Shown one piece after another: positions 9,869-62,850 of a DNA stretch of 64,000 nt; position 1 is the first letter of the stretch, and each line of letters starts with the position of its first letter. The position numbers and the translations under genes were made by a program. The notes beneath the pieces are model-generated. The model searched no databases. It had not been told where the DNA came from and worked only from the letters and a program-made list of their open reading frames with translations. Source of the DNA: Liolophura sinensis. Lineage: Eukaryota; Mollusca; Polyplacophora; Chitonida; Chitonidae. Location: positions 24,253,953 to 24,317,952 of the forward strand of contig NC_088307.1 of the NCBI RefSeq assembly GCF_032854445.1. Reading direction: 5' to 3'.

Positions 9869-9966
9869 AGTGAATTTGAATTTGAATTGAAAGGATTTTG
9901 TGTAAGTTGTGTCATTTTTCTAGTCTTTGACTTTGTAGTAAATTTTGCCAGCAGATTTTATTCATC

Positions 9967-10551: not shown

Positions 10552-10589
10552 AGTGGCCTAAAAAGTTTTGGACTACCCTTTTACAGAGT

Positions 10590-19187: not shown

Positions 19188-19291
19188 CTAATGAGGCCTG
19201 CCAGTGAACGAGTCCGAGTGGTGACGCTGTCGTCTGACGGGCTGGCTATGGAGAATCTCCTGTATGTGCTGAACAATCAGATCTATGGCCA
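19188..19291 (-). CDS. UCK: UCK exon 7 (last)
   Basis: [14 protein letters not shown], then a basic/Ser tail ending RPH and TAG at 19188-19190. The acceptor is CCCTTGCAG. Confidence 0.93.
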
Positions 19292-22200
19292 CTGCAAGGG
19301 AAAACAGAGGTCGTTTTAATACTGACATATGTAATGTGCTGCCTAACTGTAACACAATGCTGAAGACATCAGGTGTGATTTCTCCACAAAATTTGTTGGT
19401 CATATCACAAGTTCACAACTGTACCTCCAATTTAAGCATGCTGGTACCCAGTAAATTTGTGTTTAACAGAACAACAACTGTAACACCATGAAAAAAACAA
19501 CATACAGGAAAACCAATTTCATCATATATTAGCCTTCAGGTTTTTAGCACTGTTTCGTGTCAGAAGGGTGTCTCTTTTATTTTATTTATGATATGTGTAT
19601 TTATTTATTAGAATGAAGTTTAACACTGATTTCAAAAATATTTGACTTGATACTAAAGAAGTGAAGGCACTGGTCACCTGATAAATATACAAGTTTTCAC
19701 AAGCTTTCAACCTTCTTGGTAGAAATCTCAGTAAAGCAGTGTATAATTGTCAACTTATTCAATGTTATACACTAGGTATATGAAACTAGAGTGCCTGAAG
19801 ATGGCCAATAACCAAATTTTCCCAAATGTGACAGATTTTCAGTTCATAGTGCTCTGAGTACACCACTGCACTTTGCCAAGAAGGTGACAAACTTCCTGAC
19901 TTAAATCTGCAGTCTGCCAGCAATCTGCGGATGGTCGTGGGTTTCCCCCGGGCTCTGCCAGGGTTCCTCCCACCATAATGCTGTCCTCTGTCGTATAAGT
20001 GAAATATTTTTGAGTACGGCGTAAAACACCAATCAAATAAATAAATTAAATTTGCAGCTGATCTAGGGACAGTTTACCTAACAAACCTCCTGACCTCCCG
20101 CCAAAAAATGACAAGAGCTGGATTTGAACTCATAACCTCCTTGCGTGAGAACCTGATAATCATAGAGATTGAAGTGCTCATATAGATTGAGAGACTCACC
20201 AACATTATCAGCTCCACGAGGTATTATAACATCTGCATACTTTTTTGTCTGAAACAAAATTAAGTTGTGAAACATGTTATCTAGCTACATGAATCAGTGA
20301 CTACCGACCAATCAGTGATTGGTACCCAATTTTCAAAACCAAATTATAGTCCGCCAATATTGCTTAAACTTGTTTAGTCAATATTCCTTGCTTCTGAAAC
20401 AGGTTGTTCAATATATTAATGTAAAAATACTTCGCACAGCTTAACTGTGGCTTCCTTGTGACCCGTGGGCAAAATAAAGGGAGGTAATTAGGAAAAATAA
20501 AATAACAAAATTTAGCTATTGAAGGCACTGTGATTTACAAGGTAGCATCCAGAATTTTACACACAGAGGACACTCTGATTACTTCACCTCTAAGTCACTG
20601 AACACAGAGACTTATCACCAGCTACATGTACATCAAACCCTATCCAATGGACGGAAATGAAGAAAACTCTTCACTCCAGTTCCAGTATGAACAAGTTGGT
20701 CATGTGGTCTGCTTATAGATCAGACAACAGTGAATCTTTTTTTTTTGTTCTCAATTTCCAAGCTTTTCAACATTTGTAGTATTCAAGTGTAGTATATCAG
20801 TTAGTTATATTTGGCTTTAGAGTGAGTGAGTGAGTGCTTGGGGTTTAACATCGTACTGAACAATTTTTCAGTCATATGACGACGAAGGAATCCTTAGGGT
20901 GCATGTACGTGTAATGTGCCTCCTTGTTGCAGGACGGATTTCCACCGCTCTTTTACCTAGTGCTGCTTCACTGAGACGACTTACCGAAGGCAAGTAAGCC
21001 ACTCCGCCCGAGCCATTATACTGATACGGGTCAACCAGTCGTTGCACTATCCCTTTCATGCTGAACGCCAAGCGAGGAAGTTACAAAAGCGAGGAAGTTA
21101 CAACTTCCTCTTTTAAAGTCTTAGGTGTGGATCCTGGATGTACCGGTCTTGGCTTTAGAATGGTCTTCAATTCAGGACAAGACTTTGGCACTGATTCTTT
21201 TGATATCCAATAAGAGACCCTTTCTCTCTTAACAGTACTTCGGTTTTCATACCAGAGTTAATTTTTTTACTTATTTGGTTGGTGTCTTATGCTCTACTCA
21301 AGAATATTTCACTTATATGACGGCTGGCATTATGGTAGGAGGAAGCCCGGCAGAGACCAGGGGAAACCCACCACCATCTGCAGGTTGCTGGCAGACCTTC
21401 TCCCATACGGCCGCAGACATGGTGGGAGCAAAGCGGGCAGAACCCAGGGGAAACCCACGACCATCTGCAGGTTGCTGGCAGACCTTCTCCCATACAGCCG
21501 CAGACATTATGGTGGGAGCTAACCGGGCAGAGCCCAGGGGGAACCCAAGACCATCCGCAGGTTGATGGCAGACCTTCCCAAATACTACCAGAGTTCAAGC
21601 ATTATGTTGATACAAATTAAATTTTGATTTGTAGGCTCAGTCCTACACTAATGACATGAATGAGGACATGCTCTACTCTGATAGGACTACAGTTAATCAT
21701 TAAAACAGTAAAACTTCCTCGAATTATTCAATAACTGCATAGTAACTAATCCCCAGGATGCACTGACTTGGTAAAAAAAATCCAACTTACAACTAATAAG
21801 ACATAAATGAATTCACATGATTTTTCCTCACAATTTGTACAGCAGGGCAATTAGCTCGTGACAAAGTCCACAGAAGTATTGGTTATCTCCTGTACTTACT
21901 GGCAGGCAGAACTCTTCAAAGGCTGGTTTAACCAATGAGGTGTATTGGTGTAAAATCTGCTCAAGGTCACGGCCTCTGTCTTGTATATCCCTCAACACTG
22001 TATAATATACAAGATAGCATACGTTAATTTTACAATTAAAAACAACTCTGGTATTGCCTCTTTAAAAGAAAAATTTTATTTAGTTAGTGGGGTAACCATG
22101 GGTCCAGCAGACAGTCTGGTAGTAGAATCTGTAATGTTAGCGGCAGGCTGTCGTCAGGAGTTATTCCCCTTTCACCACTAGCTGGCTGGTGCTGTGTTTA

Positions 22201-25200
22201 AAACACCGAAAACTGCCATAACAGCATGAAAGCTATACTGGCTGATAACATTGAATATTGTTGATCATAAGTTACGCAGTTTTCGTGATTGTAACTTTTA
22301 ACTGTAATCTTAAACTGAAGCTTATCGTGTGTTACATTTGTTAATCTGTTTCATAGTTTCATGGAGCTAACTGAACATAAAAAGAAAAATTTGTCCACTC
22401 TCCGTTTCCAATCAATAAGGTTTCAGTATTCAACAAACCTGGGCCTTCTCCTTTGCCTGATTTTACATATCTTGTGATTCACTGACACCTCAGAGTAGTA
22501 AACATTATCACTGCTGTTATAGAATCATTACATGTACATCAACTCTCAGTTGTTCGATGCCATGATGTGACTTGGAAAGCTGCATATTTCCTAATCCTGT
22601 GAGGTGGTGTTAGTGTGAAGCAGGTCGTTGAGCTACTCTTCTTTCAAAAATGGGTTGTAGCATAACAGTTACAATGTTACAACTAATGACTTTCTACAAT
22701 AACATTGTTCTCTATTTTATGTAATATTTCCATGATGAGCTGGGCAAGATCTTTTGACACAAGTCCTGCTGCGTAACATTTTGTGGGTCCCCATTCTGAT
22801 AGGTTTATTGGCTTCTGAACATGATACTTGTTAACATATGGTACCAGTGCACAGAGAGCTAGATGCCTGGTAAGACGAGACAGTATCAGGTTTTTGCGAG
22901 ACATACCTCTCCTTGAGAGCCTTGTGTCAGCATCGGTGTCCACAAAAAGCTTCATGTTAAACATTTCTCGGATTTCTTTGAAATAAAACACAAGGATTCC
23001 CTCAAACAGCACCACATCAGCAGGACCAACTTCCTGAGCAGTGTCCTCCCTAGTAACCAATCAGAAATCATTATAGAAATACAACCTATGAAAATGAATA
23101 CAGTAGGCCAACAACCAATCAGAAATCACTACAGTGGAATAAATTAGTAATCACTACAATGGAACCAATCAGTAATCACTACAGTGGAACCAATCAGAAA
23201 TAAATACAGTGGAACCAATCAGTAATAAATACTGCTGAACCAATCAGTAATCAATACTGTGGAACCAAACAGAAATAAATACAATGGAATTAATCAGAAA
23301 TCAATATACTACAATGAATTAGAATCAATAAAAAGTAATCAGAATCAGTATTATACCAACTAGTGCAACCAATACAAATCAATACAATGGAACCAAATAG
23401 ATTGAATTAGTACCAATGTGACAAATGTGAATCAGTACTAAACAACCAATCACGGATTAAATATAATACAATTTATATTTATTATTTGATTGGTGTTTTA
23501 TGCCACACTCAAGAATATTTCACTTATACGAAGGTGGCCAGCATTATGGTGGGAGGAAACTGAGCAGAGTCCGGAGGAAACACATGACCATAAATATAAT
23601 ACAACCAATCAGTGATCAATAAATGGTACACATACATAACATTATCTCTGGACACTGGTATAACTTCTCATCTGGCATTGTTAATGTAGCCGTATGCTGA
23701 GATAACTAGTCAGACACCTAGCATTGTTAAAATAGCTGTGTGTTGTAATGATCACTCACCTGGCATTGTTAATGTAGCTGCATGTTGTGATAACCACTCA
23801 CCTGGCATTGTTCATGTAGCTGTATATTGGGATAACCACTCAATTGGCATTGTTGATGTAGCTGTACGTTGGGATAAACACTCACCTGGCACTGTTGATG
23901 TAGCTGTATATTGGGATGACCACTCACCTGGCATTGTTAATGTAGCTGTACGTTGGGATAAACACTCACCTGGCACTGTTGATGTAGTGGTATATTGGAA
24001 TAGCCACTCACCTGGCATTGCTGATGTAGCTGTATGTTGGGATAACCACTCACCTGGCATTGTTAATGTAGCTGTATATTGGGATGACCACTCACCTGGC
24101 ATTGTTAATGTAGCTGTATATTGGGATAACCACTCAATTGGCATTGTTGATGTAGCTGTATGTTGGGATAAACACTCACCTGGCACTGTTAATGTAGCTG
24201 TATATTGGGATGACCACTCACCTGGCATTGTTAATGTAGCTGTACGTTGGGATAAACACTCACCTGGCACTGTTGATGTAGTGGTATATTGGAATAGCCA
24301 CTCACCTGGCATTGCTGATGTAGCTGTATGTTGGGATAACCACTCACCTGGCACTGTTCATGTAGCTGTATATTGGAATAACCACTCACCTGGCATTGTT
24401 AATGTAGCTGCATGTTGTGATAACCACTCACCTGGCATTGTTGATGTAGCTGCATGTTGGGATAAACACTCACCTGGCACCGTTGATGTAGCTGTATGTT
24501 GGGATAACCACTCACCTGGCACTGTTGATGTAGCTGTATATTGGAATAACCACTCACCTGGCATTGTTAATGTAGCTGTACGTTGGGATAAACACTCACC
24601 TGGCACTGTTGATGTAGCTGTATGTTGGGATAACCACTCACCTGGCACTGTTGATGTAGCTGTATTTTGGAATAACCACTCACCTGGCATTGCTGATGTA
24701 GCTGCATGTTGGGATAAACACTCACCTGGCACTGTTGATGTAGCTGTATGTTGGGATAACCACTCACCTGGCACTGTTGATGTAGCTGTATATTGGAATA
24801 ACCACTCACCTGGCATTGTTAATGTAGCTGTACGTTGGGATAAACACTCACCTGGCACTGTTGATGTAACTGTATATTGGGATAACCACTCACCTGGCAC
24901 TGTTGATGTAGCTGTATGTTGGGATAACCACTCACCTGGCACTGTTGATGTAGCTGTATATTGGAATAACCACTCACCTGGCATTGTTAATGTAGCTGTA
25001 TGTTGGGATAACCACTCACCTGGCATTGTTGATGTAGCTGTATATTGGAATAACCACATCTGGCATTGTTGATGTAGCTGTATATTGGAATAACCACTCA
25101 CCTGGCATTGTTAATGTAGCTGCATGTTGTGATAACCACTCACCTGGCATTGTTGATGTAGCTGTATATTGGAATAACCACTCACCTGGCATTGCTGATG

Positions 25201-28200
25201 TAGCTGCATGTTGGGATAACCACACCTGGCATTGTTAATGTAGCTGTACGTTGGGATAAACACTCACCTGGCACTGTTGATGTAGCTGTATATTGTAATA
25301 ACCACTCACCTGGCATTGCTGATGTTGCTGTATATTGGAATAACCACTCACCTGGCATTGTTAATGTAGCTGCATGTTGTGATAACCACTCACCTGGCAT
25401 TGTTGATGTAGCTGTATATTGGAATAACCACTCACCTGGCATTGCTGATGTAGCTGCATGTTGGGATAACCACTCACCTGGCATTGTTAATGTAGCTGTA
25501 TGTTGGGATAAACACTCACCTGGCACTGCTGATGTAGCTGTATGTTGGAATAACCACTCAGACACCTTGCATTGTTAAAGGAGAAGAAAATTCAAATATC
25601 AATCAAATACCATTGAATGAGTATGCTTTTCCTCGCAGGTGCATGCCATAAAAGAAATTCTAATATGTACCTCATGTTGACAAATTGTAAATAAAGCCAG
25701 CACCAAAATCTGCTGTGGGTGACTCCATTTTGCCTTAGACCTAGTCCTGAAATCTTCTGTGTTAGGAGGAGAATTGCCGTCAGAAACCGCCGAAGTGCAG
25801 TTCGTACATTTCCCGTAGAACTCTTCTTCCCAAGGGGTAGCAAACAGTACACTTCATTTTCTGCTTGACGATGGGGAAACCGGAATGTTTGACGTAGGTT
25901 CGAGTTTACACGAACAAGCCGGCAGTTTTAGCGACTCTCAGTGCCTGACAGGCAAGACACCCCCAGCATAAATTACAGGGACTTAAAGATGGAGGACACG
26001 ATGGGCTCGGAGATACCAGCTTTGCCATTTTCAGGCTTTATGTGTATGGCGAGGAAAAATCGCAAAATTATGCAGCACGCACCACCAGATAGAAAAAAAA
26101 TGTGCTCTTTTCAGCCTATAGTGTCACGTTGTCAAGTTTTCTTCTCTTTTAATGTAGCTACATGTTGTGGTAACCACTCACCTGGCATTGTTCATGTAGC
26201 TGTATGTTGGGATAACCACTCACCTAGCATTGTTAATGTAACTGTATATCGGGATGACCACTCACCTGGCATTGTTTATGTAACTGTACATTGGAATTAC
26301 CACTCACCTGGCATTGTTGATGTAACTGTATATTGGGATGACCACTCACCTGGCATTGTTAATGTAAATGTATGTTGGGATAACCACTCACCTGGCATTG
26401 TTTATGTAACTGTACATTGGGATAACCACTCACCTGGCATTGTTAATGTACCTGTATATTGGGATAACAACTCACCTGGCATTGCTGATGTTGCTGTATA
26501 TTGGAATAACCACTCACCTGGCATTGTTAATATAGCTGTATGTTGGGATAAACACTCACCTGGCACACTTGATGTAGCTGTATATTGGGATGATCACTCA
26601 CCTGGCATTGTTAATGTAACTGTATATTGGGATGACCACTCATCTGGCATTGTTTACGTAACTGTATATTGGGATGACCACTCATCTGGCATTGTTAATG
26701 TAACTGTATATTGTGATGACCACTCACCTGGCATTGTTAATGTAACTGTATATTGGGATGACCACTCATCTGGCATTGTTTACGTAACTGTACATTGTGA
26801 TGACCACTCACCTGGTATTGTTAATGTAGCTGTATATTGGGATGACCACTCACCTGGCATTGTTAATGTAGCTGTATATTGGGATGACCACTCATCTGGC
26901 ATTGTTAATGTAGCTGTATATTGGGATGACCACTCACCTGGCATTGTTAATGTAGCTGTATACTGGGATGACCACTCACCTGGCATTGTTAATGTAGCTG
27001 TATGTTGGGATAACTACTCGTTGTCCAGCTCTGATATCTTTCACAGTGCTGATCATTAAGTCAGAGTCAAATGCATCTACAATTACAGATAGAAAGAGCA
27101 ACCAGTTTACTTATTTATTCATTTGATAAATGTTAAATAATTTACCTGAGTGATAAAGTTTTAACTAGTTTAACAGTGTTAAGTACATATATGTATAATT
27201 TGAATGACCAAGGTAAAGAGATATCCATATGATCAAAGGAAAGTTGCTACCTGAATGATCAAAGTGAAGGATACCCTGCATGATTAATGATCAATGCTAA
27301 GTGTAAGATTTATTTATCTGATTAGAATTATCAAATTTTTGCATGTATCTAATTACTGATCAAAATAAAGTGTTACGTTTTATCTGAATGATCAAAGTAA
27401 TGTGTTACCTGGATGATCAAAGTTATGTGTTACCTGGATGATCACAGTAAGTTAACCTAGATACCGAATGTTAAGTTTTACCTGGCTAATCAATGATACA
27501 TGTTTATGCAAAGTATTACCTGAACGATTAAAGTAAGGTGTTACCTGGATGATCAAAGTTGAACTCTCCTTTCTGAGCGAGAACTTTTTCTGGTTCAGTC
27601 AGGTTCCTGTAGAAGGCGTCTTGACTGATGATGACCACTTGACGATGGTGACATTCCATGTTAGACTGCCCCAGCTCCTCCATAATCTTGGCACATACAG
27701 ATGACTATAATGGACAAGCGGGGTTATAAGAAACCCAGCAGCTCAGAAACTAGTGCTTCTGTTTAAATGGCAGTCTATAAAATTGTCTAGACATCTGATT
27801 CAAACAGGAGAAAACTTCAAAATCTGGTATTTTTTCCTAATTCATCTATTGTTTCAGATTTAAAATGTGCACATCTTCAAAGCATGTTCATTAAAAATGT
27901 GTACTGAAAACCTGGGACTAATATTTATATAAGTTCAATATTTATATAAGTTCAATATTTATATAAGTTCAATATTTATATAAGTTCAATATTTATATAA
28001 GTTCAATATTTATATAAGTTCTAATATTTATATAAGTTCAATATTTATATAATATAACATAAGAATTACAATAGTCCCAGTCAAAACTAAGCATAAACAT
28101 CAACCCTTTTTAAACATTAAATCTTACCTTAGTTTTATTTATTTATTCGATTGATGTTTTACGCTGTACTCAAGAATGCCAGCATTATGGTGGGGGGAAA

Positions 28201-31289: not shown

Positions 31290-31440
31290 TGTCGATATCT
31301 CAAAAAGTAATGAATGTTTTGTACTGAGATTTTGCCTTCATGTAAAGCACAATGGAAGTAGGGGAGTGTTCCATTGTTGATGCGTTGTTTGCATGTCATC
31401 TACTGTAAATTACGAAATTCATTAGTGGATTGTGTATGAG
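31290..31440 (+). repeat. dispersed repeat D2
   Basis: Shares GTTCCATTGTTGATGCGTTG-like and TACTGTAAATTACGAAATTC phrases with 46,175-46,330 and 55,525-55,720. Confidence 0.5.
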
Positions 31441-31754
31441 CCCAATTCTGGCGGGCTCGCGAGTTCATGTCGATATCGACGAGACAGATTGAAGCTCGCG
31501 CAAACTGCGAAAGAGGTAATTTTACGTTAGGTGCCAATGGTGCCATCGAAGCAGCGGACAGGCGTGTTTTCAATCTAGCAACTACCGTAAAATAACGTCT
31601 TTTATCTACATTAGTTTGCGAGGACTTCCAACTATCTTGCTTATATCTGCGTGAACTGGCGACACCCCTGAAATGACGATTTGGCTTATTAAAATCAATG
31701 TTAGGGCTGGGACTAATATAAGAGTTATATTAGTTATACTAGTCCCAGGTTAAG

Positions 31755-31900
31755 GTAAATGTTAGGTATCTCAAAACGCTCTGCATGACTTATACTGCTG
31801 CCTCACTGGATCATGACTGCAGGGTACGGGATCATTGTTAAAGCTAAGTACTGTAAATTACAAAATTCATGACTTCATAATTTGTATTTATTTATAATGT
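31755..31900 (+). repeat. dispersed repeat D2, second copy
   Basis: TACTGTAAATTACAAAATTC followed by ATGACTTCATAATTTG, with the TATCTCAAAACG lead-in seen near the other copies. Confidence 0.5.
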
Positions 31901-32254
31901 ATTGAGCTGAAGTTTTGCTGGAAGGGGGCGGGGAAGGGGGTAGGTGGGTGTTGAGCTCTATTGTAACGTTGCTACCAAATCCAATTTTTTTTTTTTAGGT
32001 CATTATGAATTTGCATTGTTAAAAATGTGTACGTGTATTTTGAAACTTCCAATTCTTCATTAACTTTTTAGGCACTGGTATTTTTAATTAGAAATGACTT
32101 TTTTATCAATTACTATTAAAAGATTAATTTATCTTTTGATTTCAGGAGTGCATTTAGACTTGAATTATACAGATTATCAGCATAATATGAGTTACACACT
32201 GCCAGCATCATGAAGTTAGGCAATTAATACAATCTAAAAGACCACCCACAAGCG

Positions 32255-54000: not shown

Positions 54001-57000
54001 CTGGTTGCGCCCTGTTTCCTCCCACCATAATGCTGGTCGCCATGGAATATGTGAAATATTCCGGATCACATCATAAAACATCAATGAAATAAATAAATAA
54101 ATCGAAAGACTTATGACATGGAAATTCCTAGAGAAAAAATCTGCCAGTGCCTCAGATATAGAGAATCAAGCAATTGAGATAAAAAAATGAGTACACTGTG
54201 GTCGCACATGATTAAGCAGGTAGCACTGTTAAATGCGAACATTTTCAGAAAATAACATTGTGTGCATTAAAAAAAGACAAATTACAAGTGTCAAAACAGT
54301 GAAGAAACTAAATAAAAGAAGCTGGAGAAGGTCAGGAAGGTGATATGCTTGTTTTCTTACACACATGGTTATTGGTTAAATCACAGACAGACAGACAGAC
54401 ATGTGATATTAAAAACTTGCCTGGCTGTTTCCGCTCTCGAGGTCTTGGTAGCAATAAGTGGTTTACGGCGCCCCTTGAATGAATGAATGAATGTAAGCTT
54501 GTGGTTTAACATCGAAGTTAACAATTTTTCAGTTATATGATGACGAGGAGTCATGTGGTGTATGTACATATATTGTGTCTTCTTGTGACAGGACACACCC
54601 ATGCTGCTGCCACTGAAGCATCATGCTGAAGACACCTGTCATGACACCTCACCAAGTCACATTATACTGACACCGGGCGAACCAGTCCTGTTTCCTTATT
54701 GTAACCTCTGAGTGGCGAACTATAAGTGAGGCAGCAACAAGTGCTATTTTTATAATCTTTGGTTTGCCCCCTGGGTCCAATGACATTGAGGCGAACGCTC
54801 TAGCCATCAGGCCACCAAAGAGGTCCAGTGCTTGTTGACCCTTCAGGTGGTTTTACATGAAGTTAAGTGCAGATCACTGGCCTCCTACCAGTTTGGTGTG
54901 GTTTGCATTGAGCTAATTCTGCTAGTGCAGATCTCTTCTCTCAGTTATTGGTAATTGACTCTCCAAGATCATGAATTTGTACCACAGCTTAAACATGCAT
55001 GACTTGGTTGTTTTCTTGCTTGTAAATCTGTCTAAACCTGGGAATGAACAAGCTTTTTTTGTAAATGTGAAAATGTGAAACATGTTTATCATCAAGCATG
55101 TTATCTACAAATGTGGATGTCCCATCCCCCCACCCCCCCCAAAAAAAAAAACACTAACTACCGTCATATAAATGAAAAATACTTGAGCGTAGTGTTAAAC
55201 AGCAATCAAAGAAATAAACCAAATGAATTATTTTGTTGCAGGCAGGCCAGGCCACCGAGCCAGAGTGTTTAATTCCCATTTCTCTGATTGGTCAGTCAGA
55301 TGGACAGGTAAAAACTCTTACTTGCAGCATTTTAAAGCCTCATGGTGTGAACTGTAACCAGGAATAAAGAGCGTTTTAATTCCCCAACATTGCGTGTAGT
55401 TGTAATTATCACATCTTATGTGTAACAAGCTTTTACCTGCATTTCAGTGGCAAAATCTTCTACCACAGCTGTAGAAAAATGTGACTTAGTAAGTGATTTG
55501 AATGTCCATGTTTATGTAGTACCCTGAACGTCATCAGAGGTGGGATGACATGAGCAAGGTTCCATGGTTGATGCACAGTGTTCATATTAATTACCATAAA
55601 TTACAAAATTCATGATTCAATTTATTGTGTATTAGAATAATTGTTGAAGTATTAAATGTGCGGGGTTGTATCTCAGAAAGTACTGCATGCATTATAGCCT
55701 TGCTACCAAATTTAATTTCCTCTTATTATGTTACAGATTGTGCTGGCGGGTGACCCTCATCAGCTTGGTCCAGTCTTGGCCTCAAAGTTTGCTAAATCCC
55801 ATGGACTGGAGCTCTCTCTTCTAGAGAGGCTCACCCTCATGCCAGTCTACCGTCGAGATGTGTCCAGATTTCAGCACGGCTACAACCCACTTCTGGTATT
55901 AATTGTGTTAAAATTTAAATGAATTATTCCTATTATGCTGTACAGTTCCCGTCCAGCTAGTGCATGTCCGATCCAGTTATTGCTGTTCCAATGCTGCCAT
56001 TGCTGTTTCATATCAGTTGTATCTGTTCCAGTTCAGCTATATATTGCTGTTACAGTTTAGCTTGAACTGTTCCAATGCAGCAATTGCTGTTCCATGTCAG
56101 CTGTATCTGTTCCAGTTCAGCTATATATTGCTGTTTCAGTTTAGCTTGAACTGTTCCAATGCAGCTATTGCTGTTCCAGTTCAGGTTGAGCTGTTTGAAT
56201 GCAGACATTGCTGTTCCAGTGCTGCTATTGCTGTTCCATGTCAGCTTCAGCTTTTCTTATCCAGCTATATATTGCTGTTTCAGTTTAGCTTGAACTGTTC
56301 CAATGCAGCTATTGTTGTTCCAGTTCAGGTTGAGCTGTTTGAATGCAGACATTGCTGTTCCAGTGCTGCTATTGCTGTTCCATGTCAGCTTCAGCTTTTC
56401 CAGTTCAGCTATATATTGCTGTTTCAGTTTAACTTGAACTGTTCCAATGCAGCTATTGCTGTTCCAGTTCAGGTTGAGCTGTTTGAATGCCGACATTGCT
56501 GTTCCAGTGCTGCTAGTGCTGTTCCATGTCAGCTTCACCTTTTCCAATTCAGCTATATATTGCTGTTCCAGTTTAGCTTGAACTGTTCCAATGCAGCTAT
56601 TGCTGTTCCAGTTCAGGTTGAGCTGTTTGAATGCCGACATTGCTGTTCCAGTGCCGCTATTGCTGTTCCATGTCAGCTTCAGCTTTTCCAGTTCAGCTAT
56701 ATATTGCTGTTCCAGTTTAGCTTGATAGCTGCACTGTTCCAGTGCAGCTATTGCTATATGTGATCCATTTCAGCTATATATTGCTGTGCCAGTTCATTTT
56801 AAGCTGTTCCAGTTCAGCTTGAGCTGTTCGAATGCAGATATTGCTGTTCTAGTTCAGCTTGAGCTGTTCCCATGCAGATAATGCTGTCCCAGTGCAGCTT
56901 TAGCTGTTCCAATGCAGATAATGCTGTCCAAGTGCTGCTTCAGCTGTTCCAGTGCAGCTAGTACAGAGGTATACCCATGGCACTCTGGCTTCCTATACAC

Positions 57001-60000
57001 ATAAACAAAATTGCTGTCATGTAAGGGAGAAATTTAGGAGTGTGCTTGCAAAGATCAATGAGATGAATAAGTGAGTAAATAAAAAAAATAATTGACTAAA
57101 GTTTTGCAGTCAGTAATGTAGAACATTATAAATTGTATACAATATTGTTATTAAATTCTGTCTGTGGTATGAAAATGCACACAGCCAAGTTGAACACATT
57201 GTAATGCTCGTGCGTGTAATAATTGTGTATTTGTTTGATACGAGTGGGGGAATTCTGGGGAATGCTTGTAATGCAATACAAGCTGGTATTTTTGTGACAT
57301 TGATGTTTCAGGTGACGAAGCTCGTTGACAACTACCGTTCGCATGAATCTCTGCTGCGTCTGCCCTCACGTCTGTTCTATCATGACGAACTTTGTGTCAA
57401 GGCTGACCCTGAACTAACTCACAGCTTCACTGATTGGTCGAATCTCCCCATGAAAGGCTGTCCTCTCATTTTCCACGGTGTTCGGGTAAGTAGTGAAACG
57501 CAGTGTGATATGTTGGAGATAGCCTATTCGAGATAGGCTCATGTATAAATGGCATTATCTGTAGAACCAATCACACGAGATGAATTGTTGAGATGTGTAT
57601 AGCAGCTCGAAGTCATCAGGGAAAGAAAACAGCCAATTCTGATTTCACTGAAATTATGATCTAGTTGATATTATAGCTACAGAAAGCAAGCAAGTTAAGA
57701 ATGTTGTTTTCTGCCCCACTTATGAATGGATTGGCCGGTTGCTGTTTGTTTTTTTGTTTGTAGCATAGACTTATGAGCATTTACTGTACTGTATTTGGCT
57801 TAAAGATTAGCCTTTCTCAGGTGATTCTGGTTGATTCATCCACCTTATTGGGCTTCTTATGAGTTAATTTGTGACCAATGATTAATTTCTTATCTGAGAA
57901 ACTTAAATTTTTGATTTTCAGTGTACCATGTGAGCACATTTGAACCACAAAGTGTATTAACCTAGCATGTTTTTTCGATGATCCCCGTAATGAGAGGATA
58001 TTGTACAGAAGTGGTGTTAGGGAGGGGCTGAGGCATATGTGTTCTGTAAATTCTAGCTCAGCATCTAGTTTCACTGCAGGGACCTCAGTGGCCAAGGTGG
58101 TTAGTGCCCCAGCATGGCGCAATGACGCAGCCTCTCATCAATGTGGTCACTGTTAGTTCAAGTCCAATTCATGCTGGCTTCCTCTACGGCGATATGTGGA
58201 AAGTCTGACAGCACCCTGTGGATGGTCGTGGGTTTCTCCCGGGCTCTGTCTGGTTTTCTCCCACCATAATGCTGGTCATGGCGGTATAAGTGAAATATTC
58301 TTGAGTACAGCATGAAAACACCAATGAAATAAATAAATTAAGTTTCAGTGCAGGGTGGCAGGTTGGTCAGAACTGTATTAAAAATTAAGACAGGTTTACG
58401 TCTTAATACCAGCCTTAGTGAAATATAAAACTTATCCCAGACTAAAGGTTATATCAGGTCCTAATACACTTTTGAACCACTGGACTCGTCCGATGTTTTT
58501 CGTGTTTTAGGGAGAAGACATGAGAGATGGGAACAGCCCATCGTGGTTCAACCCCGCAGAGACTGTTCAGGTGATTCAGTATGTTCAGATGTTGTTACAT
58601 GAAGAACCGCACAGGATAGCCCCTGAGGAGATTGGCATCATCACAGCTTACAGAAAACAGGTGAGGTGGGGCAGTCATAGCTGTGTAGGTATGTATTTTA
58701 CTGGTGGTTTACAGGATTTCACTTATGGACAGGATGGGGCACTGTCTTGGCTACATATGTACATGTATGTATTTTACTGGTGGTTTACAGGATTTCACTT
58801 ATAGACAGGATGGAGCACTGTCTTGGCTACATATGTACATGTATGTATTTTACTGGTGTTTTACAGGATTTCACTTATAGACAGGATGGGGCACTGTCTT
58901 GGCTACATATGTACATGTATGTATTTTACTGGTGTTTTACAGGATTTCACTTATAGACAGGATGGAGCACTGTCATGGCTACGTATGTACATGTATGTAT
59001 TTTACTGGTGTTTTACAGGATTTCACTTATGGACAGGATGGGGCACTGTCTTGGCTACATATGTACATGTATGTATTTTACTGGTGATTTACAGGATTTC
59101 ACTTATGGACAGGATGGGGCACTGTCTTGGCTACATATGTACATGTATGTATTTTACTGGTGGTTTACAGGATTTCACTTATGGACAGGATGGGGCACTG
59201 TCTTGGCTACATATGTACATGTATGTATTTTACTGCTGTTTTACAGGATTTCACTTATAGACAGGATGGGGCACTGTCCTTGGCTACATATGTACATGTA
59301 TGTATTTTACTGGTGGTTTACAGGATTTCACTTATAGACAGGATGGGGCACTGTCTTGGCTACATATGTACATGTATGTATTTTACTGGTGGTTTACAGG
59401 ATTTCACTTATGGACAGGATGGGGCACTGTCTTGGCTACATATGTACATGTATGTATTTTACTGGTGGTTTACAGGATTTCACTTATGGACAGGATGGGG
59501 CACTGTCTTGGCTACATATGTACATGTATGTATTTTACTGGTGTTTTACAAGATTTCACTTACTGACAGGATGGAGCACTGTCATGGCTATGTATGTACA
59601 TGTATGTATTTTACCGGCGTTTTACAAGATTTCCCTCACTGACAGGGTGGAACACTGTCATGGCTATGTATGTACATGTATGTATTTTACTGGTGTTTTA
59701 CAAGATTTCACTCACTGACAGGGTGAAACACTGTCATGGCTATGTATGTACATGTATGTATTTTACTGGTGTTTTACAAGATTTCACTCTCTGACAGGGT
59801 GAAACACTGTCATGGCTACGTATGTACATGTATGTATTTTACTGGTGTTTTACAAGATTTCACTCTCTGACAGGGTGGGGCACTGTCATGGCTATGTAAG
59901 TACATAGGTAATCTGTAGCTAAATTTTCCCTTTTACATCATTAGTCATGCAGTTGTTATATTCTTTCTCAGGTGGAGAAAATTCGTCTTTTGATGGAAAA

Positions 60001-62223
60001 GTTGGGAATCCCGAAAATAAAAGTTGGTTCAGTGGAAGAGTTTCAAGGTCAGGAGAGGAAAGCTGTAATCATTTCCACGGTAGGTCAAGATTAGATGGCC
60101 CTTAGAAGAAAAGACGACAAATAATGTAACCTTACTTACATATATTTCGGAAGGGGGCTGGTGTGGAGACAGACCTAAAGTTCCGTGGCCATTTCTTGTT
60201 GTTGTTGACATGCTTGGTAACGCCTTTGATCAACTTTTAATCTGGAATTCTCACAAACATGGCTAAATTGCAAAATACTGATCTACCAAAAAGGCTTCTT
60301 TGCAAGTTATAGCAATAATTCACACCCATTTGATCAAATTATTATCATGTCAGCTCAGTTGATTTTCCTAGTGGTCATGATTTTATTTACTTTTAACTGC
60401 AATATCTTGACTATGCAGCATGTTTGTTAAACTACAAATGAGATGCTGGGTGTGGTGGGTTTCTGGTGTCTTTGGCGTGATTTCCAGTGAGGCAGCATTG
60501 GGTCCAGCCTGCCATAGGCAAGTGTCATGATTCATGTATAAGTAAAGTAATGTTGAAATCAATGACATAACGTCACAAGAGAGCGAGATAAACAAAACAA
60601 AATACCTGTGGCCTTCATTAAAAATCAAATACCGCTTTATGTTTCCCATGGCATAAACACAATTTGGTGGAGCTTTAGTTGAATAATGGGAATGTTCAGT
60701 ACCTTCCTCAACCCTTTCACATATAAAAGTGCAACTTTCTGTACAATTTATGCACATTTTTAATTTGATTTTGGAGTCAATTGATTGGCCAGTGTCAAGG
60801 GCTTTAGAAAAAGTATAATTTTATCAGTCAGTATAGAATAACACCTTCAGAATGTGCGTGAATAAACATGTTGCAAACATGGAAAAGGGTTGAAGAAATA
60901 CAGTGACTCAGTTAATCACTCAGGTCAAAGAGATTTGAATGTTGAAATATTATCCAGAAGAAATGAACTCAAGTCTGAAAGTTCATCTTGATGCGGTGGT
61001 TATATATTTTGGAATTTTTGTTGGAAATTGCAATATATCAGGAAAACTCAAAGTAAACTGACAGAAAAATATATATTTGTGTCTGGTTTTAATTTCCAAT
61101 TCCATGAGGTGCCGCTAACCTGAAACAAGACCTCAAGGAGTAATTGTTAGGCAATGTCTACAATGTTACAATGTATCAGTATCTGCTATAACATTGTCCA
61201 GTCTTTAAAGTTAGCTGGGAAAAGAACATAATAAATAATATAATAAGAAATAAAATGGCATCTGGGTCCTACTTCCTGGCTTTTGGAGGTCCCCATTTTC
61301 ATGCCACGTATCATGAAGGTTTACATGTACAGGGGGTCCTCCGACCACAATGCTAAAAAAATAAACAAACAGGTGCAGGGAGTGTATACAGTCCCATAGA
61401 GATCTTCTCGTGTCCAGCAACCTGTGGATGGTTGTGGGTTTGTGCTGACCACCGTCATGTAAATGAGATGTTCTGGAGTACAACGTAAAACACCGATCAG
61501 ATAAATAAAAATCAAGTAAATCTTGTCATTGTTCTGCCAGTACTTTGGAAACTGTTCAATTTTCTGGTACAGCTAAACTAAAAGTTACACATACATACAT
61601 GTAATGGGCCTCCGTGGCTCAGTCGGTTACCGTGCTAGCGCAGCGTAATGACCCAAGAGTCTCTCACCAATGCAGTTGCTGTGAGTTCAGCTCATGCTGG
61701 CCTCCTCTCCAGCCGTACGTGGGAAGCTGTTCCAGAAACCTTTGGATGGTTGTGGTTTTCCCCTGGGCTCTGCCCGGTTCCTCCCACCATAATGCCGGCC
61801 ATAATATTCTTGAGTACTACTGCATAAAACAGAAATCAAATATATAAATAAATAAATACATACATGAAATGATATTACATATGAATGCACAGATTGAGGT
61901 AATCTGAATGATAGAACTAACATGCCAAACAAGAAAAAATATTTTGTATTTCGCTTATATATTGCTTTATAAAGAAAGCAGCATACGTCAAGGAGAAAAC
62001 CTGCTTCAGAACATGATATTTTACTCTGGTCCTTCTGGTGTTAACCATTCTCGTCATAATATTTTCTTGTTTCTCTTGCAGGTTAGATCGACCGAAAACT
62101 TGTTGCGTTTTGACGTGCGTCATAATCTAGGTTTCCTGTCCAATCCAAAAGAGGTTTAATGTTTCTATCACAAGAGCCCAGGCCCTTCTCATTGTTATTG
62201 GCAACCCATTTGTCCTCTCTCAG
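32255..62223 (+). CDS. MOV10L1: MOV10L1/Armitage-like RNA helicase (piRNA biogenesis), 18 exons, C-terminus not located
   Basis: Exons: 32255-33054, 33748-34101, 35879-36091, 36872-36989, 37591-37689, 39954-40100, 42869-42960, 43795-43853, 46627-46866, 47573-47682, 48531-48608, 52207-52362, 55242-55307, 55737-55895, 57312-57485, 58511-58660, 59972-60079, 62082-62223. All junctions are GT-AG with matching phase, about 1,088 codons. SF1 (Upf1-like) motifs in order: I GPPGTGKT (about 704), Ia [16 protein letters not shown] (821), [54 protein letters not shown]. The long N-terminus (CSD-like repeats, then [16 protein letters not shown]) is that of MOV10L1 rather than MOV10. The family feeds piRNA precursors to PIWI-pathway nucleases in germ cells. 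One extra base at 62,147-62,150 breaks the frame in motif VI. The usual C-terminal segment after GNP was not found by 64,000. Confidence 0.93.
33061..33125 (+). repeat. dispersed repeat D1 (intron 1)
   Basis: TGTAATTCTTCAACCTTTTC and GTTTATTCAAGCATATTCTG match 1085-1150. It starts a few nt after the exon 1 donor. Confidence 0.6.
33305..33565 (+). repeat. SINE-1, full length (MOV10L1 intron 1)
   Basis: The head GGGCCGCCATGACCGAGGGG, GAGTTCAAGTCCAGCTCGTG, the body and the AATTAAATAAATAAATAAAT tail are all present. Confidence 0.9.
33601..33711 (+). repeat. SINE-1, 3' fragment (intron 1)
   Basis: GGAAGATCTGTCAGCAACCT to CAAATCGAATTAATAAAT, diverged. Confidence 0.7.
33748..34101 (+). CDS. MOV10L1: MOV10L1-like exon 2
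   Basis: 354 nt. Contains [20 protein letters not shown], the counterpart of the vertebrate VTHFGTLKEG block, then a Lys/Arg segment and LYVAVVCEA. Confidence 0.9.
34541..34710 (+). repeat. SINE-1, 3' two thirds (intron 2)
   Basis: TTCCTCTCCGGCTGTATTGG to TAGATAAATGAATGAATG. Confidence 0.85.
34813..35080 (+). repeat. SINE-1, full length, well preserved (intron 2)
   Basis: The best head: TGGCTCAGTTGGTTAGCGCG (box A) and GAGTTCAAGTCC (box B). The body has GGGTTCTGCCCGGTTTCCAC and the tail AATCAAATGAATAAATG. Confidence 0.93.
35879..36091 (+). CDS. MOV10L1: MOV10L1-like exon 3
   Basis: 213 nt: [24 protein letters not shown] and a [12 protein letters not shown] end with phase 2 donor GTAAGA. 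Confidence 0.9.
36092..36871 (+). other. MOV10L1 intron 3; nothing recognised
   Basis: AT-rich, with homopolymer A runs and no repeat family member found. Confidence 0.5.
36872..36989 (+). CDS. MOV10L1: MOV10L1-like exon 4
   Basis: 118 nt: [19 protein letters not shown] then an acidic/helical segment. The LPQ-x-P-VPD block corresponds to LPQYPIPD of vertebrate MOV10L1. Confidence 0.93.
37130..37394 (+). repeat. SINE-1, full length (intron 4)
   Basis: TGTGGCTCAGTTGGTTAGTG head, AGTTCAAGTGCAGC box B with a mutation, full body and AATCAAGTAAATAAATAAAT tail. Confidence 0.92.
37591..37689 (+). CDS. MOV10L1: MOV10L1-like exon 5
   Basis: 33 codons: [20 protein letters not shown], the conserved LLxLEEI segment of MOV10-type proteins. 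Confidence 0.93.
37711..39164 (-). mobile_element. Tc1-like transposon, nearly intact, in MOV10L1 intron 5
   Basis: Terminal inverted repeats CAGTCATGGAAAAAATTATT / its complement with GACCAC continuing, flanked on both sides by TA (37709-37710, 39165-39166). 1,454 bp. It carries an open transposase frame on the minus strand. It was inserted 21 bp after the exon 5 donor, antisense to the host gene. Confidence 0.95.
38162..38983 (-). CDS. Tc1-like transposase, open but N-terminally short
   Basis: 273 codons without stop. A helix-turn-helix segment ([13 protein letters not shown]), [10 protein letters not shown] and the catalytic core are present: first Asp in LFSDESNF, second Asp in [10 protein letters not shown], then 34 residues to the Glu in [11 protein letters not shown] (DD34E), plus the GGGSVMIWG motif. 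Family members are usually about 340 aa. The first DNA-binding helices are missing here, and the element is about 150 bp shorter than typical, so an N-terminal deletion is likely. The core looks functional but DNA binding is doubtful. Confidence 0.9.
   Translation of the reverse strand: MRGNFMLSKKLKISKTAVHYTKKKQAEHGTTKLLAGRARKRLSTPRDDRALIRSCIKNCRQTSRDLRNEWALSTNVTCSARTVRNRLLEAGLKSHRARKKPFINERQRKARLRFARDHKSWTVDDWAKVLFSDESNFELMPTPANLLVRRKPGEAYKPDCLAPTVKHGGGSVMIWGCFSMGGTGQMQLCEGRMNQVTYRATLENSLLPSAAKLFPGSNDWIFQQDNAPCHTARSVKTWTENRNIRTMNWPAQSPDLNPIENLWNIIKFKMENH
39167..39953 (+). other. rest of MOV10L1 intron 5; one tRNA-like SINE head
   Basis: Around 39,560-39,625 a tRNA-like stretch (ACTTAGAGGTTAGAG; CCCAGGTTCAAACCTGG) resembles the SINE-3 head at 13,580. 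Nothing else is recognised. Confidence 0.45.
39954..40100 (+). CDS. MOV10L1: MOV10L1-like exon 6
   Basis: 49 codons: [20 protein letters not shown], the MOV10-family [11 protein letters not shown] signature, ending AGYIHE. Confidence 0.95.
40357..40737. repeat. about 68-bp tandem repeat, 5-6 copies (intron 6)
   Basis: The unit contains AAAGACAAGCATTCATACAA, ATATACAGTCATGAAGTCAT and GACGGAGGGCATACCTGTCC. Two copies lack GAG in the last segment. Confidence 0.95.
40757..41142 (-). other. unidentified open stretch, possibly a transposon relic (intron 6)
   Basis: The minus-strand frame is open for about 125 codons from an acceptor-like TTTTATTCAG near 41,143 to the stop at 40,757. It includes [20 protein letters not shown] and [19 protein letters not shown]. 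The hydrophilic, helical composition is unusual for intronic noise. Parts of the flank (TTTGATTTATTTA, TTCTGAGCATAC) recur at 42,235-42,330, suggesting a dispersed element. I do not recognise it. Confidence 0.3.
41690..41939 (-). repeat. SINE-1, full length (intron 6)
   Basis: From CTTTGATTGGTGTTTTACAT to the head complement GCGCTAGCGCGCTAACGAAC and CCACAGAGACC. Confidence 0.92.
42095..42190. repeat. 24-bp tandem repeat, 4 copies (intron 6)
   Basis: The unit is AGGCTAAGACAACCCTAATA plus TGAA. Confidence 0.95.
42444..42697. repeat. 11-bp minisatellite with higher order (intron 6)
   Basis: The basic unit is GTGACCAGAAC or GTGGCCAGAAC/GTGGACAGAAC, about 23 copies, arranged partly as 33-bp triplets. 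Confidence 0.93.
42869..42960 (+). CDS. MOV10L1: MOV10L1-like exon 7
   Basis: 92 nt: [18 protein letters not shown] and YDVVFTFNR, matching the DVEFTYNR region of vertebrate proteins. Confidence 0.93.
43067..43329 (-). repeat. SINE-1, full length (intron 7)
   Basis: TTTATTTGATTGGTGTTTTA to CCTCGGCCAC. Head partly diverged. Confidence 0.88.
43322..43510. repeat. about 45-bp tandem repeat, 4 copies (intron 7)
   Basis: The unit contains CTGTGGATTTGTGTCAAGAG and GTTTGCCAGGTTTACTC. It overlaps the end of the preceding SINE-1 (GGCCACTGTGG), so the seed may include its last bases. Confidence 0.85.
43795..43853 (+). CDS. MOV10L1: MOV10L1-like exon 8
   Basis: 59 nt: [19 protein letters not shown]. 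The RRCH motif is conserved in the family. Confidence 0.9.
44078..44232 (+). repeat. diverged SINE-1, 5' part (intron 8)
   Basis: GGTACCTCTGTTGCCTGGTG, TCGCTGTGAGTTTAAGGGC and a CTTCCTCTCCAG body. It breaks off at CTGCGAATG, where the 39-bp array begins. Confidence 0.65.
44222..45790. repeat. 39-bp minisatellite, about 40 copies (intron 8)
   Basis: The unit is ATGTCAGGGGTGAATCAAAG plus CTAAGATGGTTAAAGTTAG. The period is 13 codons, so frames on both strands stay open (for example 44,332-45,174 minus), but these are not genes. The right end degenerates into ACATGATAAAAG variants. Confidence 0.95.
45870..46150 (+). repeat. SINE-2, body and 3' end (intron 8)
   Basis: CTCGTTTGGCGTTCAGCATT, CGGCTTACTTGCCTTCGGTA, TTGTTAAGTACGACGTCAAA and a final GACTCACTCA. 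Confidence 0.85.
46175..46330 (+). repeat. dispersed repeat D2 (intron 8)
   Basis: CAGTGTTCCTTCACTGATGC, ATTACCGTAAATTACAAAAT and GTGTATTAGAATCATTGTT match 55,525-55,720. Confidence 0.55.
46364..46500 (-). repeat. SINE-1, 3' half (intron 8)
   Basis: TTCATTTGATTGGTGTTTTA to GCAGGTTGCTGGAAGACCT. Confidence 0.85.
46627..46866 (+). CDS. MOV10L1: MOV10L1-like exon 9 (start of helicase core, Q-motif and half of Walker A)
   Basis: 240 nt: [24 protein letters not shown] (Q-motif region) and [10 protein letters not shown], with Walker A completed in exon 10. Confidence 0.95.
47573..47682 (+). CDS. MOV10L1: MOV10L1-like exon 10 (motifs I and Ia)
   Basis: 110 nt: [11 protein letters not shown] completes the P-loop; [14 protein letters not shown] is motif Ia. 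Confidence 0.96.
47775..47935 (+). repeat. dispersed repeat D3 (intron 10)
   Basis: AGAAGAAAAGACAACACTTA, GGAAACAGACCTAAA and ATTAATCTGGAATT recur at 60,090-60,250 with the same order. Confidence 0.55.
48531..48608 (+). CDS. MOV10L1: MOV10L1-like exon 11
   Basis: 26 codons: [20 protein letters not shown], the MVR-NA segment before motif II. Confidence 0.93.
48725..52206 (+). repeat. 119-bp array of splice acceptor plus start of MOV10L1 exon 12 (about 29 copies)
   Basis: Each unit carries GAAATTGTGATTGTTTCAG|A and GCATACCTGACAGCATTTGA. It equals the 3' splice site and first codons of exon 12 followed by diverged exon sequence (CCTGTTGCCATGATGGCACT). A 99-bp variant (GACACTAACTTGCAGGTGG) stays closer to the real exon. 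From about 50,170 on, four 119-bp units plus one 99-bp unit form a 575-bp higher-order repeat (variants start at 50,176; 50,870; 51,445; 52,020). Decoy exons contain TGA where the true exon has CGA. Confidence 0.93.
52207..52362 (+). CDS. MOV10L1: MOV10L1-like exon 12 (to the DE of motif II)
   Basis: 52 codons: [30 protein letters not shown], then [12 protein letters not shown], ending inside the DEAG box. This is the last and only non-nonsense unit of the upstream array. Confidence 0.93.
52433..53675. repeat. 36-bp minisatellite, about 35 copies (intron 12)
   Basis: The unit is GTATTGACATATTCCCATAC plus AAACCACATACCAGGC. Some copies lack ATAT (32 bp). It begins 70 bp after the exon 12 donor. 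No similarity to the flanking exons was seen. Multiple 60-271-codon open frames result from the 12-codon period. Confidence 0.95.
53685..53811. mobile_element. right-end fragment of the TTAA-type MITE (intron 12)
   Basis: GCCGTTTTCAGGCTTTACGT, CACCAGATAGAAAAAAAT and TTTTTCTCCTTTAA match the right half of the element at 25,575-26,152. TTAA at 53,808-53,811. The left half is missing and it abuts the 36-bp array. Confidence 0.75.
53957..54102 (+). repeat. SINE-1, 3' half (intron 12)
   Basis: GGAGAGGTGTGCCAACAATG to AATGAAATAAATAAATAAAT. Confidence 0.8.
54478..54824 (-). repeat. SINE-2, diverged full length (intron 12)
   Basis: GTGGTTTAACATCGAAGTTA, ACAATTTTTCAGTTATATGA, then a tRNA-like head complement (GCTCTAGCCATCAGGCCACC) at the right end. 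Confidence 0.75.
55242..55307 (+). CDS. MOV10L1: MOV10L1-like exon 13 (AGQ of motif II onward)
   Basis: 22 codons [15 protein letters not shown]..., completing DEAGQ. Acceptor TTTTGTTGCAG. Confidence 0.96.
55525..55720 (+). repeat. dispersed repeat D2 (intron 13)
   Basis: GGTTCCATGGTTGATGCACA, ACCATAAATTACAAAATTCA and the TCTCAGAAAGTACTGCATGC end. Confidence 0.55.
55737..55895 (+). CDS. MOV10L1: MOV10L1-like exon 14 (motif III)
   Basis: 53 codons: [21 protein letters not shown] and YRRDVSRF. Confidence 0.96.
55945..56965. repeat. about 20-bp degenerate repeat with 144-bp higher order (intron 14)
   Basis: The basic unit is CAGCTATTGCTGTTCCAGTT-like. The central part (56,060-56,720) is organised in 144-bp blocks marked by GCTATATATTGCTGTTTCAG. 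It begins within about 50 bp of the exon 14 donor. The 48-codon block leaves a 267-codon frame that is not a gene. Confidence 0.92.
57312..57485 (+). CDS. MOV10L1: MOV10L1-like exon 15 (motif IV)
   Basis: 58 codons: [20 protein letters not shown] and [10 protein letters not shown]. Confidence 0.96.
57486..58079 (+). other. MOV10L1 intron 15, first part; nothing recognised
   Basis: AT-rich unique sequence. A 101-codon minus-strand frame here has no recognisable feature. Confidence 0.5.
58080..58339 (+). repeat. SINE-1, full length (intron 15)
   Basis: CAGTGGCCAAGGTGGTTAGT head, TTAGTTCAAGTCC box B, body and AATGAAATAAATAAAT tail. Confidence 0.9.
58511..58660 (+). CDS. MOV10L1: MOV10L1-like exon 16
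   Basis: 50 codons: [20 protein letters not shown] and [12 protein letters not shown], the conserved IGIITPYRKQ block. Confidence 0.96.
58675..59905. repeat. 76-bp minisatellite starting at the exon 16 donor, about 16 copies (intron 16)
   Basis: The unit contains TGGTGTTTTACAGGATTTCA, CTTATGGACAGGATGGGGCA, CTGTCTTGGCTACATATG and TACATGTATGTATTTTAC. The donor region of exon 16 (ACAG|GTGAGGTGGGGCAGTC, then GGTATGTATTTTACTGG) aligns imperfectly with it. The first part also resembles the SINE-1 3' end (TTGGTGTTTTAC...ATTTCACTTATA). Confidence 0.93.
59972..60079 (+). CDS. MOV10L1: MOV10L1-like exon 17 (motif V)
   Basis: 36 codons: [36 protein letters not shown]. Confidence 0.96.
60090..60250 (+). 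repeat. dispersed repeat D3, second copy (intron 17)
   Basis: Same phrases as 47,775-47,935 (AGAAGAAAAGACGACAAATA; GAGACAGACCTAAAG; TTTTAATCTGGAATTC). Both copies lie shortly after an exon. Confidence 0.55.
60835..60907 (-). repeat. dispersed repeat D1 (intron 17)
   Basis: The complement contains TTCTTCAACCCTTTTCCATG and GTTTATTCACGCACATTCTG. Confidence 0.55.
61414..61511 (+). repeat. SINE-1, 3' fragment with deletion (intron 17)
   Basis: TCCAGCAACCTGTGGATGGT joins directly to GTGCTGACCACCGTCATG. Tail ATCAGATAAATAAA. Confidence 0.75.
61607..61858 (+). repeat. SINE-1, full length (intron 17)
   Basis: GGCCTCCGTGGCTCAGTCGG head, GTGAGTTCAGCTCATG box B with a short deletion, body and ATAAATAAATAAATA tail. 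Confidence 0.9.
62082..62223 (+). CDS. MOV10L1: MOV10L1-like exon 18 (motif VI) with a +1 frameshift
   Basis: [20 protein letters not shown], then NPK in one frame; [24 protein letters not shown] in the next. The length is 142 nt where phase requires 141. The run CCAAAAGAGG (A-run 62,147-62,150) has one A more than needed, and unshifted translation stops four codons later at TAA. The motif VI sequence is otherwise intact, so a recent mutation or a homopolymer sequencing/assembly error is likely. The exon ends in the 38-bp donor array. Confidence 0.88.
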
Positions 62224-62850
62224 GTACGACTTGCTTTGGCAACCCATTTGTCCTCTCTCAGGTACGACTTGCTTGGCAACTCATTTGTCCTTTCTCAGGT
62301 ACGACTCGCTTTGGCAACCCATTTGTCCTCTCTCAGGTACGACTTGCTTTGGCAACCCATTTGTCCTCTCTCAGGTACGACTCGCTTGGCAACCCATTTT
62401 GTCTTTTCTCAGGTACAACTTGCTTTGGCAACCCATTTGTCCTTCCTCAGGTACGACTTGCTTTGGCAACCCATTTGTCTTCCTCAGGTACGACTCGCTT
62501 TGGCAACCCATTTGTCCTCTCTCAGGTACGACTCGCTTTGACAACCCATTTGTCCTCTCTCAGGTACGAACTCGCTTTGACAACCCATTTGTCCTCTCTC
62601 AGGTACGACTTGCTTTGGCAACCCATTTGTCCTCTCTCAGGTACGACTTGCTTTGACAACCCATTTGTCCTCTCTCAGGTACGACTTGCTTTGGCAACCC
62701 ATTTGTCCTCTCTCAGGTACGACTCACTTTGGCAACCCATTTGTCCTTTCTCAGGTACGACTCGCTTTGGCAACCCATTTGTCCTCTCTCGGGTATGACT
62801 TGCTCTAGCAACCCATTTGTCCTTTCTTAGGTACGACTCGCTTTAGATCT
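62224..62850 (+). repeat. 38-bp minisatellite of MOV10L1 exon 18 end plus splice donor (16 further copies)
   Basis: The unit is GTACGACTTGCTTTGGCAAC plus CCATTTGTCCTCTCTCAG. The last 22 nt equal the end of exon 18 (coding GNPFVLSQ) and each copy ends CAG|GTACGA. Copies of 36-38 bp cycle through three frames. It ends in variants TCGGGTATGA and CTTAGGTACGA. Confidence 0.95.

Follow-up and report, generated by a model that had tools for sequence, protein, structure and literature searches.

Minisatellites that span an exon-intron boundary have been described in amphioxus, where they were named mirages, for Adh3, the globin genes BflGb6 and BflGb9, TnC and PGBD5; normal splicing and mRNA were reported for these genes, together with length instability for some of the arrays (PMC3087553, PMC3902484). 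The arrays that we describe from the chiton Liolophura sinensis resemble them in that tandem repeats of minisatellite size lie across donor or acceptor boundaries and carry AG or GT in many copies; however, the host is a mollusc rather than a chordate, the units measure 25-119 bp in our window against 10-160 bp in amphioxus, and approximately 65 copies are present in chiton UCK intron 3 against 3-6 in BflGb6 (PMC3087553, PMC3902484). No estimate of the frequency of mirages at exons was found in the portions of the amphioxus reports (PMC3087553, PMC3902484) on which we draw. In the chiton, four arrays of the window and five others have a boundary-spanning unit, both types of boundary are represented, and AG or GT is kept in many copies.

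Tandem genomic duplication is said to have been published as a route of intron gain. As in the chiton, tandem duplication sets splice sites in series there, whereas the chiton introns pre-exist and grow, and a new intron was not seen. In human, a donor minisatellite of IFI6 (6-16, G1P3) was reportedly described by Turri et al. in 1995. Two internal units of the IFI6 repeat act as donors (PMC4526556), whereas no internal use is known for the chiton arrays. Intronic minisatellites have also been reported in an earthworm (PMC12783039). The sections of a chiton genomes paper that we consulted (PMC12005716) do not mention minisatellites, and our literature search, mostly of titles and abstracts and with few subscription journals, did not turn up any account of such arrays in chitons or in any other mollusc. 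The Liolophura genome paper, in the part on which we rely, places 0.08% in a class 'other' comprising simple repeats, microsatellites and RNA, against 11% to 30% of tandem repeat found by Tandem Repeats Finder (TRF) in our sampled stretches, although the two measures differ; minisatellites may lie inside the 14% that the paper gives as unclassified (PMC11068029).

Gene models and boundary-spanning arrays

The window, the whole 64,000-nt stretch analysed here, belongs to assembly GCA_032854445.1, which comprises approximately 609.5 Mb in 632 scaffolds (longest, 96,433,062; N50, 37,343,639) and was built from 14x HiFi coverage with a mean read of 8,347 bp (PMC11068029). It contains two genes, encoding a uridine-cytidine kinase (UCK, minus strand) and MOV10L1 (plus strand). 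A later correction to the genome paper has reportedly been published. Our protein search showed that the public RNA helicase Mov10l1-like protein of L. sinensis is identical to the translated plus-strand gene; this protein (P0001) starts within exon 2 and agrees with our model from there up to a frameshift in exon 18. The MOV10L1 model places 18 exons in the window, flanked by 18 GT donors and 17 AG acceptors, and exon 19 (64510-64590) lies just beyond the window end. Exon phases are compatible throughout, except for the 1-nt frameshift in exon 18 (62082..62223, plus strand) at or near an AAAA run (62147-62150); the public protein is flagged LOW QUALITY, and the frameshift is either an assembly error or a real lesion. 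The UCK model has 7 exons and 245 aa, with 3 further residues preceding the stop. Five UCK orthologues aligned to it over 234 to 246 columns, each with between 1 and 4 gap positions, and the Patella orthologue (P0122) was gapless at the exon joins, including that of exons 3 and 4. The best 120 matches in a search with the UCK protein included none named Liolophura.

An inverted partial duplicate of MOV10L1 lies about 50 kb downstream (C13, ~24360-24364 kb). Compared with window positions 46621-47352 and 58618-63695, it has ~73-86% identity over the longer matches; it has no match to 47353-58617 or 62160-63374. Open reading frames at 7415-7960 and 38165-39016, the second within MOV10L1 intron 5, resemble Tc1/mariner-type transposases, and the frames at 9931-12617 resemble gypsy-type retroelement gag and pol, in both cases by their motifs. 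A 39-bp array in MOV10L1 intron 8 (44225-45782) begins right at the end of a dispersed-repeat copy (44107-44227), as though it had grown from a seed at the margin of this element.

To the window arrays listed with TRF we applied a junction test, in which the array consensus was compared by alignment with the 40+40 nt on the two sides of every one of 47 exon edges, with 400 random 80-mers as the null. Four arrays crossed an exon boundary; they scored 59 to 132, the null maxima lying at 19 to 24. The four arrays that a preliminary description of this DNA had called clear, at the donors of UCK introns 2 and 3, the acceptor of MOV10L1 intron 11 and the donor of MOV10L1 intron 18, thus do consist of an exon-intron edge copied in tandem.

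The array of UCK intron 3 comprises approximately 65 unit copies in two blocks. Its proximal part (26173..27019, minus strand; 42 bp x 20.2) was found by TRF and spans the donor of exon 3, where 32 exonic nt matched (score 124, null maximum 24); the distal part (23656..25560, minus strand; 42 bp x 45.4) has the same unit and scored 107 to the same donor (null maximum 22). The blocks are separated by a 578-bp dispersed repeat (25575..26152) that has two near copies in the right flank (86% identity, one partial). The last 40 nt of exon 3 (26980..27076, minus strand) plus GT correspond to the array unit. The word GAGT, whose first letter is 40 nt before the end of the exon, appears again in the donor GTGAGT, at a distance of exactly one 42-bp unit. 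Arrays occupy 74% of intron 3, the junction array by itself about 69%. In UCK intron 2, degenerate repeats of ~25 bp (27372..27543, minus strand, detected by TRF at 27372-27493) are seeded at the exon 2 donor, with 13 exonic nt matched (score 59, null maximum 23); this series is shorter and more degenerate than the other junction arrays.

In MOV10L1, 96% of intron 11 is an array of 119/99-bp units (48737..52251, plus strand; found by TRF) that spans the acceptor of exon 12 (52207..52362, plus strand). The junction score was 125 (null maximum 22), with 40 nt matched on either side, and the unit takes in the acceptor together with 40 nt or more of exon 12. In MOV10L1 intron 18, the TRF array (62198..62844, plus strand; 38 bp x 17.1) lies across the exon 18 donor (score 132, null maximum 19), and its unit consists of the 26 matched exonic nt and 12 intronic nt. 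The preliminary description had also drawn attention to the arrays pointing the same way. All of them do extend into the intron; an exon cannot take copies, so that extra copies survive on the intron side only and the direction is forced.

Both MOV10L1 joins are documented by the public protein, in which exon 11 is joined to the last acceptor copy (QRTEE|SIPDS) and the first donor copy of exon 18 is joined to exon 19. The annotated protein requires the exon-proximal sites only, and no repeat copy is present in it as an exon. MOV10L1 proteins of two bivalves, one amphioxus and one human aligned across both joins with a gap of at most one residue, the one-residue gap being at the exon 11/12 join of amphioxus. 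These joins bear on the idea that the arrays mark introns gained recently when a proto-splice site was duplicated, as has been proposed for the amphioxus globins. The anatomy of the arrays is that of the published model (PMC3087553); however, they lie within introns whose flanking exons join normally, and with no repeat-copy exon in the public MOV10L1 protein we regard such a gain as very improbable here.

Arrays near junctions and the frequency of junction seeding

A fifth array, following MOV10L1 exon 16 (58689..59905, plus strand; 76 bp x 16), had been put forward as probably junction-seeded, a status that it does not keep. The array begins at the intron edge and resembles intron positions +1..+28, where 0 of 200 random stretches scored as high, as well as the corresponding place in the partial MOV10L1 duplicate; on the exon 16 side, only the last 4 exonic nt align (p=0.645), and the donor GTGA is absent from the unit. 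With soft scoring, comparison of the window junction with the unit yielded p=0.19, and comparison with the whole array p=0.047; the junction of the partial MOV10L1 duplicate gave p=0.005 and 0.040 against the two arrays, but the match is intronic. When the junctions of the 76-bp arrays in the window and the duplicate were split, the intron sides gave 0/200 three times and p=0.060, and the exon sides p=0.645 to 0.995. The array after exon 16 is an intron-edge array, not a junction array. The same holds for the shorter 76-bp intron 16 array of the duplicate, which is not a junction array and has 2.8 copies by TRF against 16 in the window.

The recurrence of the 76-bp array at two homologous loci also speaks against the arrays being artefacts of assembly. 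Tandem arrays are liable to misassembly, and coverage was 14x HiFi (PMC11068029); however, the mean HiFi read (8,347 bp; PMC11068029) exceeds the longest window array (3.5 kb), and the copies are not identical, with a mean mismatch per column of 1.7-7.4% in the window arrays and 1.2-12.3% over the nine array parts scored for decoys below. We consider an artefactual origin exceedingly unlikely.

Three further arrays had been cited as starting near exons (23,060, 52,433 and 55,945), and none of them spans a junction. The 25-bp UCK array beside the exon 4 acceptor, given earlier as 23,060 (23113..23306, minus strand), matches the intron side only (-27..-5). The 36-bp array located 70 bp past MOV10L1 exon 12 (52433..53676, plus strand) did not match its own junctions, neither of its two best-scoring edges among the 47 tested being its own. 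The 144-bp array after exon 14 (55983..56959, plus strand) had no significant match to its own junctions; its second-best edge, the exon 15 acceptor at the far end of the intron, scored 22, where the null had its 95% point at 20 and its maximum at 26; over 47 edges this amounts to nothing. The arrays at 55,983 and 58,689 fill 69% and 93% of their introns, so their nearness to exons is expected (P=0.40 and 0.61, respectively). Those at 52,433 (P=0.09) and 23,113 (P=0.03) are closer to an exon than most random placements. Despite these two of the four, we set nearness aside as evidence in its own right, since large arrays occupy most of their introns.

The preliminary description had held that splice sites would seldom be hit this often by chance. 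We modelled chance as a seed of the length of the unit placed at random in gene space, not entirely within an exon, and counted the probability of its crossing an edge. In the window, which is the discovery set, 4 of 17 arrays cross an edge against 0.76 expected (P=0.005); by TRF coordinates alone, which omit UCK donor 2, three cross (P=0.035). An independent sample was then drawn from exons picked by gene family without regard to repeats. It comprised 53 kinesin matches in 22 regions totalling 90,498 bases, 21 TCP1 matches in 20 stretches and 10 more kinesin exons, 84 exon matches in all. From 132 kinesin matches, 75 were taken and 53 lay within the sampled loci; 16 of the 53 contain stops, and their edges are less certain. 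From 50 TCP1 matches, the best 21 among those free of stops were taken, two long single-frame matches being excluded. The ten additional kinesin exons, further best matches without stops (L074-L083), showed no array within 200 nt on each side and stand outside the ratio given below. A codon-usage score for finding exons in 150 kb of flanks recovered 3 of 18 known exons and was dropped.

In this sample, 5 of 33 arrays cross an exon edge against 2.00 expected, a ratio of 2.5 (95% interval 0.81-5.83; P=0.042). Three are at kinesin exons: a donor array on C11 (73 bp x 21.6, 53 exonic nt), an acceptor array on C8 (64 bp x 11.8, at least 22 exonic nt) and an acceptor array on C9 (27 bp x 43.7), which includes 7 exonic nt and without which the count is 4. 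Two are donor arrays at TCP1 exons, L058 (C8:53405571-53406562; 66 bp x 6.8, 43 exonic nt) and L064 (109 bp x 4.6, 92 exonic nt). A total of 157 edges were called in the sample, and one of the five crossing arrays is at an edge outside the automatic calls; the C11 donor was counted after inspection of the sequence, the exon match stopping at the domain end. Requiring a 10-nt overlap on both sides left 4 arrays against 1.64 expected (P=0.073). Before one mis-called donor (C6:54956044, not counted as crossing) was corrected and locus L070, which is the same array as L058, was removed, the result was 5 of 34 against 2.19 (P=0.059). Junction arrays therefore exist outside the two genes of the window, as these five cases confirm, and the window and the sample together hold six at donors and three at acceptors, so that 5' and 3' boundaries are both duplicated.

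These counts bear on the proposal that minisatellites arise preferentially at exon edges, whether the cause is R-loops, pausing of the polymerase or microhomology of the exon with the donor word GTGAGT or GTAAGT. The excess in the independent sample and in the window is suggestive of preferential seeding, and the GAGT words one unit apart in UCK exon 3 and its donor agree with the microhomology variant. Against this, the confidence interval spans 1, the 10-nt rule gives P=0.073, and the microhomology comes from one array and from present-day rather than ancestral sequence. We entertain such a preference as a tentative possibility. Replication slippage, R-loops or recombination between GT-AG words, the causes named in the preliminary description, are alternative candidates for the copying step. 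According to TRF, tandem repeats cover 30% of the window gene space, 11% of the flanks and 16.7% of the kinesin regions. In a genome so rich in minisatellites, the rate of junction seeding appears to be close to, perhaps about twice, the random expectation, and the statement that chance would seldom suffice thus finds weak support.

Decoy splice sites

Extra copies of a junction carry decoy splice sites. The splice dinucleotide is intact in 148 of 175 scored copies from nine array parts, a few of which are the functional copy itself; for MOV10L1 acceptor 12 the scored copies are 11 from a single part, and UCK donor 2 was excluded. The 27 losses compare with 24.5 expected if the splice dinucleotide were lost as often as the average dinucleotide of these units. 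Three of the nine parts lose decoys above the average (5/20 against 2.8, 3/11 against 1.4 and 14/43 against 9.8), which could be weak purging, and six lose them below it. As a whole, decoy GT and AG are neither clearly retained nor purged, and there is no clear signal of selection.

Site strength was predicted with a matrix derived from the donors and acceptors of MOV10L1. Decoys predicted to be as strong as the true site numbered 53 of 57 in UCK intron 3, 28 of 29 in MOV10L1 intron 11, 13 of 16 in intron 18 and 3 of 14 in the kinesin array on C11. The use of decoys would break the reading frame in five of seven arrays tested (UCK donors 2 and 3, MOV10L1 acceptor 12, kinesin C11 and TCP1 L064), the two kinesin acceptors having been given a length check only. 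Decoys are in frame and open for 3 of 16 copies in MOV10L1 intron 18 and, within the stretch covered, for 6 of 6 in TCP1 L058, where isoforms with 22-aa repeats are conceivable from the sequence.

It had been suggested that selection retains tandem splice sites to buffer or regulate splicing. The many intact dinucleotides, the decoys that mostly match the score of the true site and the two donor units of human IFI6 (PMC4526556) are all in keeping with such a role; however, the intact fraction is approximately that of the unit as a whole, loss at close to the expected rate speaks against selection on the decoys, and their use would break the frame in most arrays tested. We find this suggestion unsupported and consider it very improbable.

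Proposed origin and significance

We conclude that the arrays are likely minisatellites of the mirage type that reflect neutral intron growth in a minisatellite-rich genome. An intact copy of the splice site stands beside the exon, and the same anatomy recurs at other genes; from these observations we infer the order of events, the mechanism of copying and the disregard of decoys by splicing as follows. A tandem duplication would by chance cover an exon edge, taking in from a few to ~90 nt of exon together with intron and the splice site, and at UCK exon 3, the one array in which it was noted, the initial duplication could have been primed by the GAGT word that exon and donor share at a distance of one unit. 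Such an event would leave a full exon and a spare edge in the intron, and would be tolerated, being neutral if the exon-proximal copy was still spliced. The array could then expand on the intron side through unequal exchange or slippage, with turnover as in any minisatellite, and the outcome would be a longer intron with a ladder of decoy splice sites. The most diverged copies were located at the array ends in four of five profiled array parts, as is usual for such arrays.

Some observations sit less easily with neutral growth from random seeds. Crossing arrays are somewhat above expectation, with 4 against 0.76 for the window and 5 against 2.0 for the independent sample, and seeding may be non-random. 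Three array parts lose decoys above the average. Since all six TCP1 L058 decoys keep an open frame, they may have a role in that gene.

With 96% of MOV10L1 intron 11 and 74% of UCK intron 3 occupied by arrays and five more cases at exons sampled by family, the view that junction-seeded minisatellites are a recurrent mode of intron growth is borne out beyond the two adjacent genes for which it was proposed. Junction arrays in the chiton are real and recurrent, probably common, and neutral by the tests run, and they extend the known mirage type to another phylum. In the papers that we draw on, mirages are described gene by gene in amphioxus (PMC3087553, PMC3902484); five at 84 mollusc exon matches suggest a possibly general and common route of intron growth. 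It is possible, though we think it less likely than not, that chiton exon edges are preferred seeds of minisatellites, that ~3% of edges carry a mirage (five at 84 exon matches with 157 edges called) and that thousands of introns contain ladders of up to dozens of near-identical decoy sites ignored by the spliceosome. If so, the whole genome would constitute a natural experiment on the choice of the exon-proximal splice site. The arrays themselves set as many as 58 near-identical splice sites in competition. One true site facing many of equal predicted strength, as in UCK intron 3 (53 of 57), could separate the effect of position from that of site strength in splice choice.
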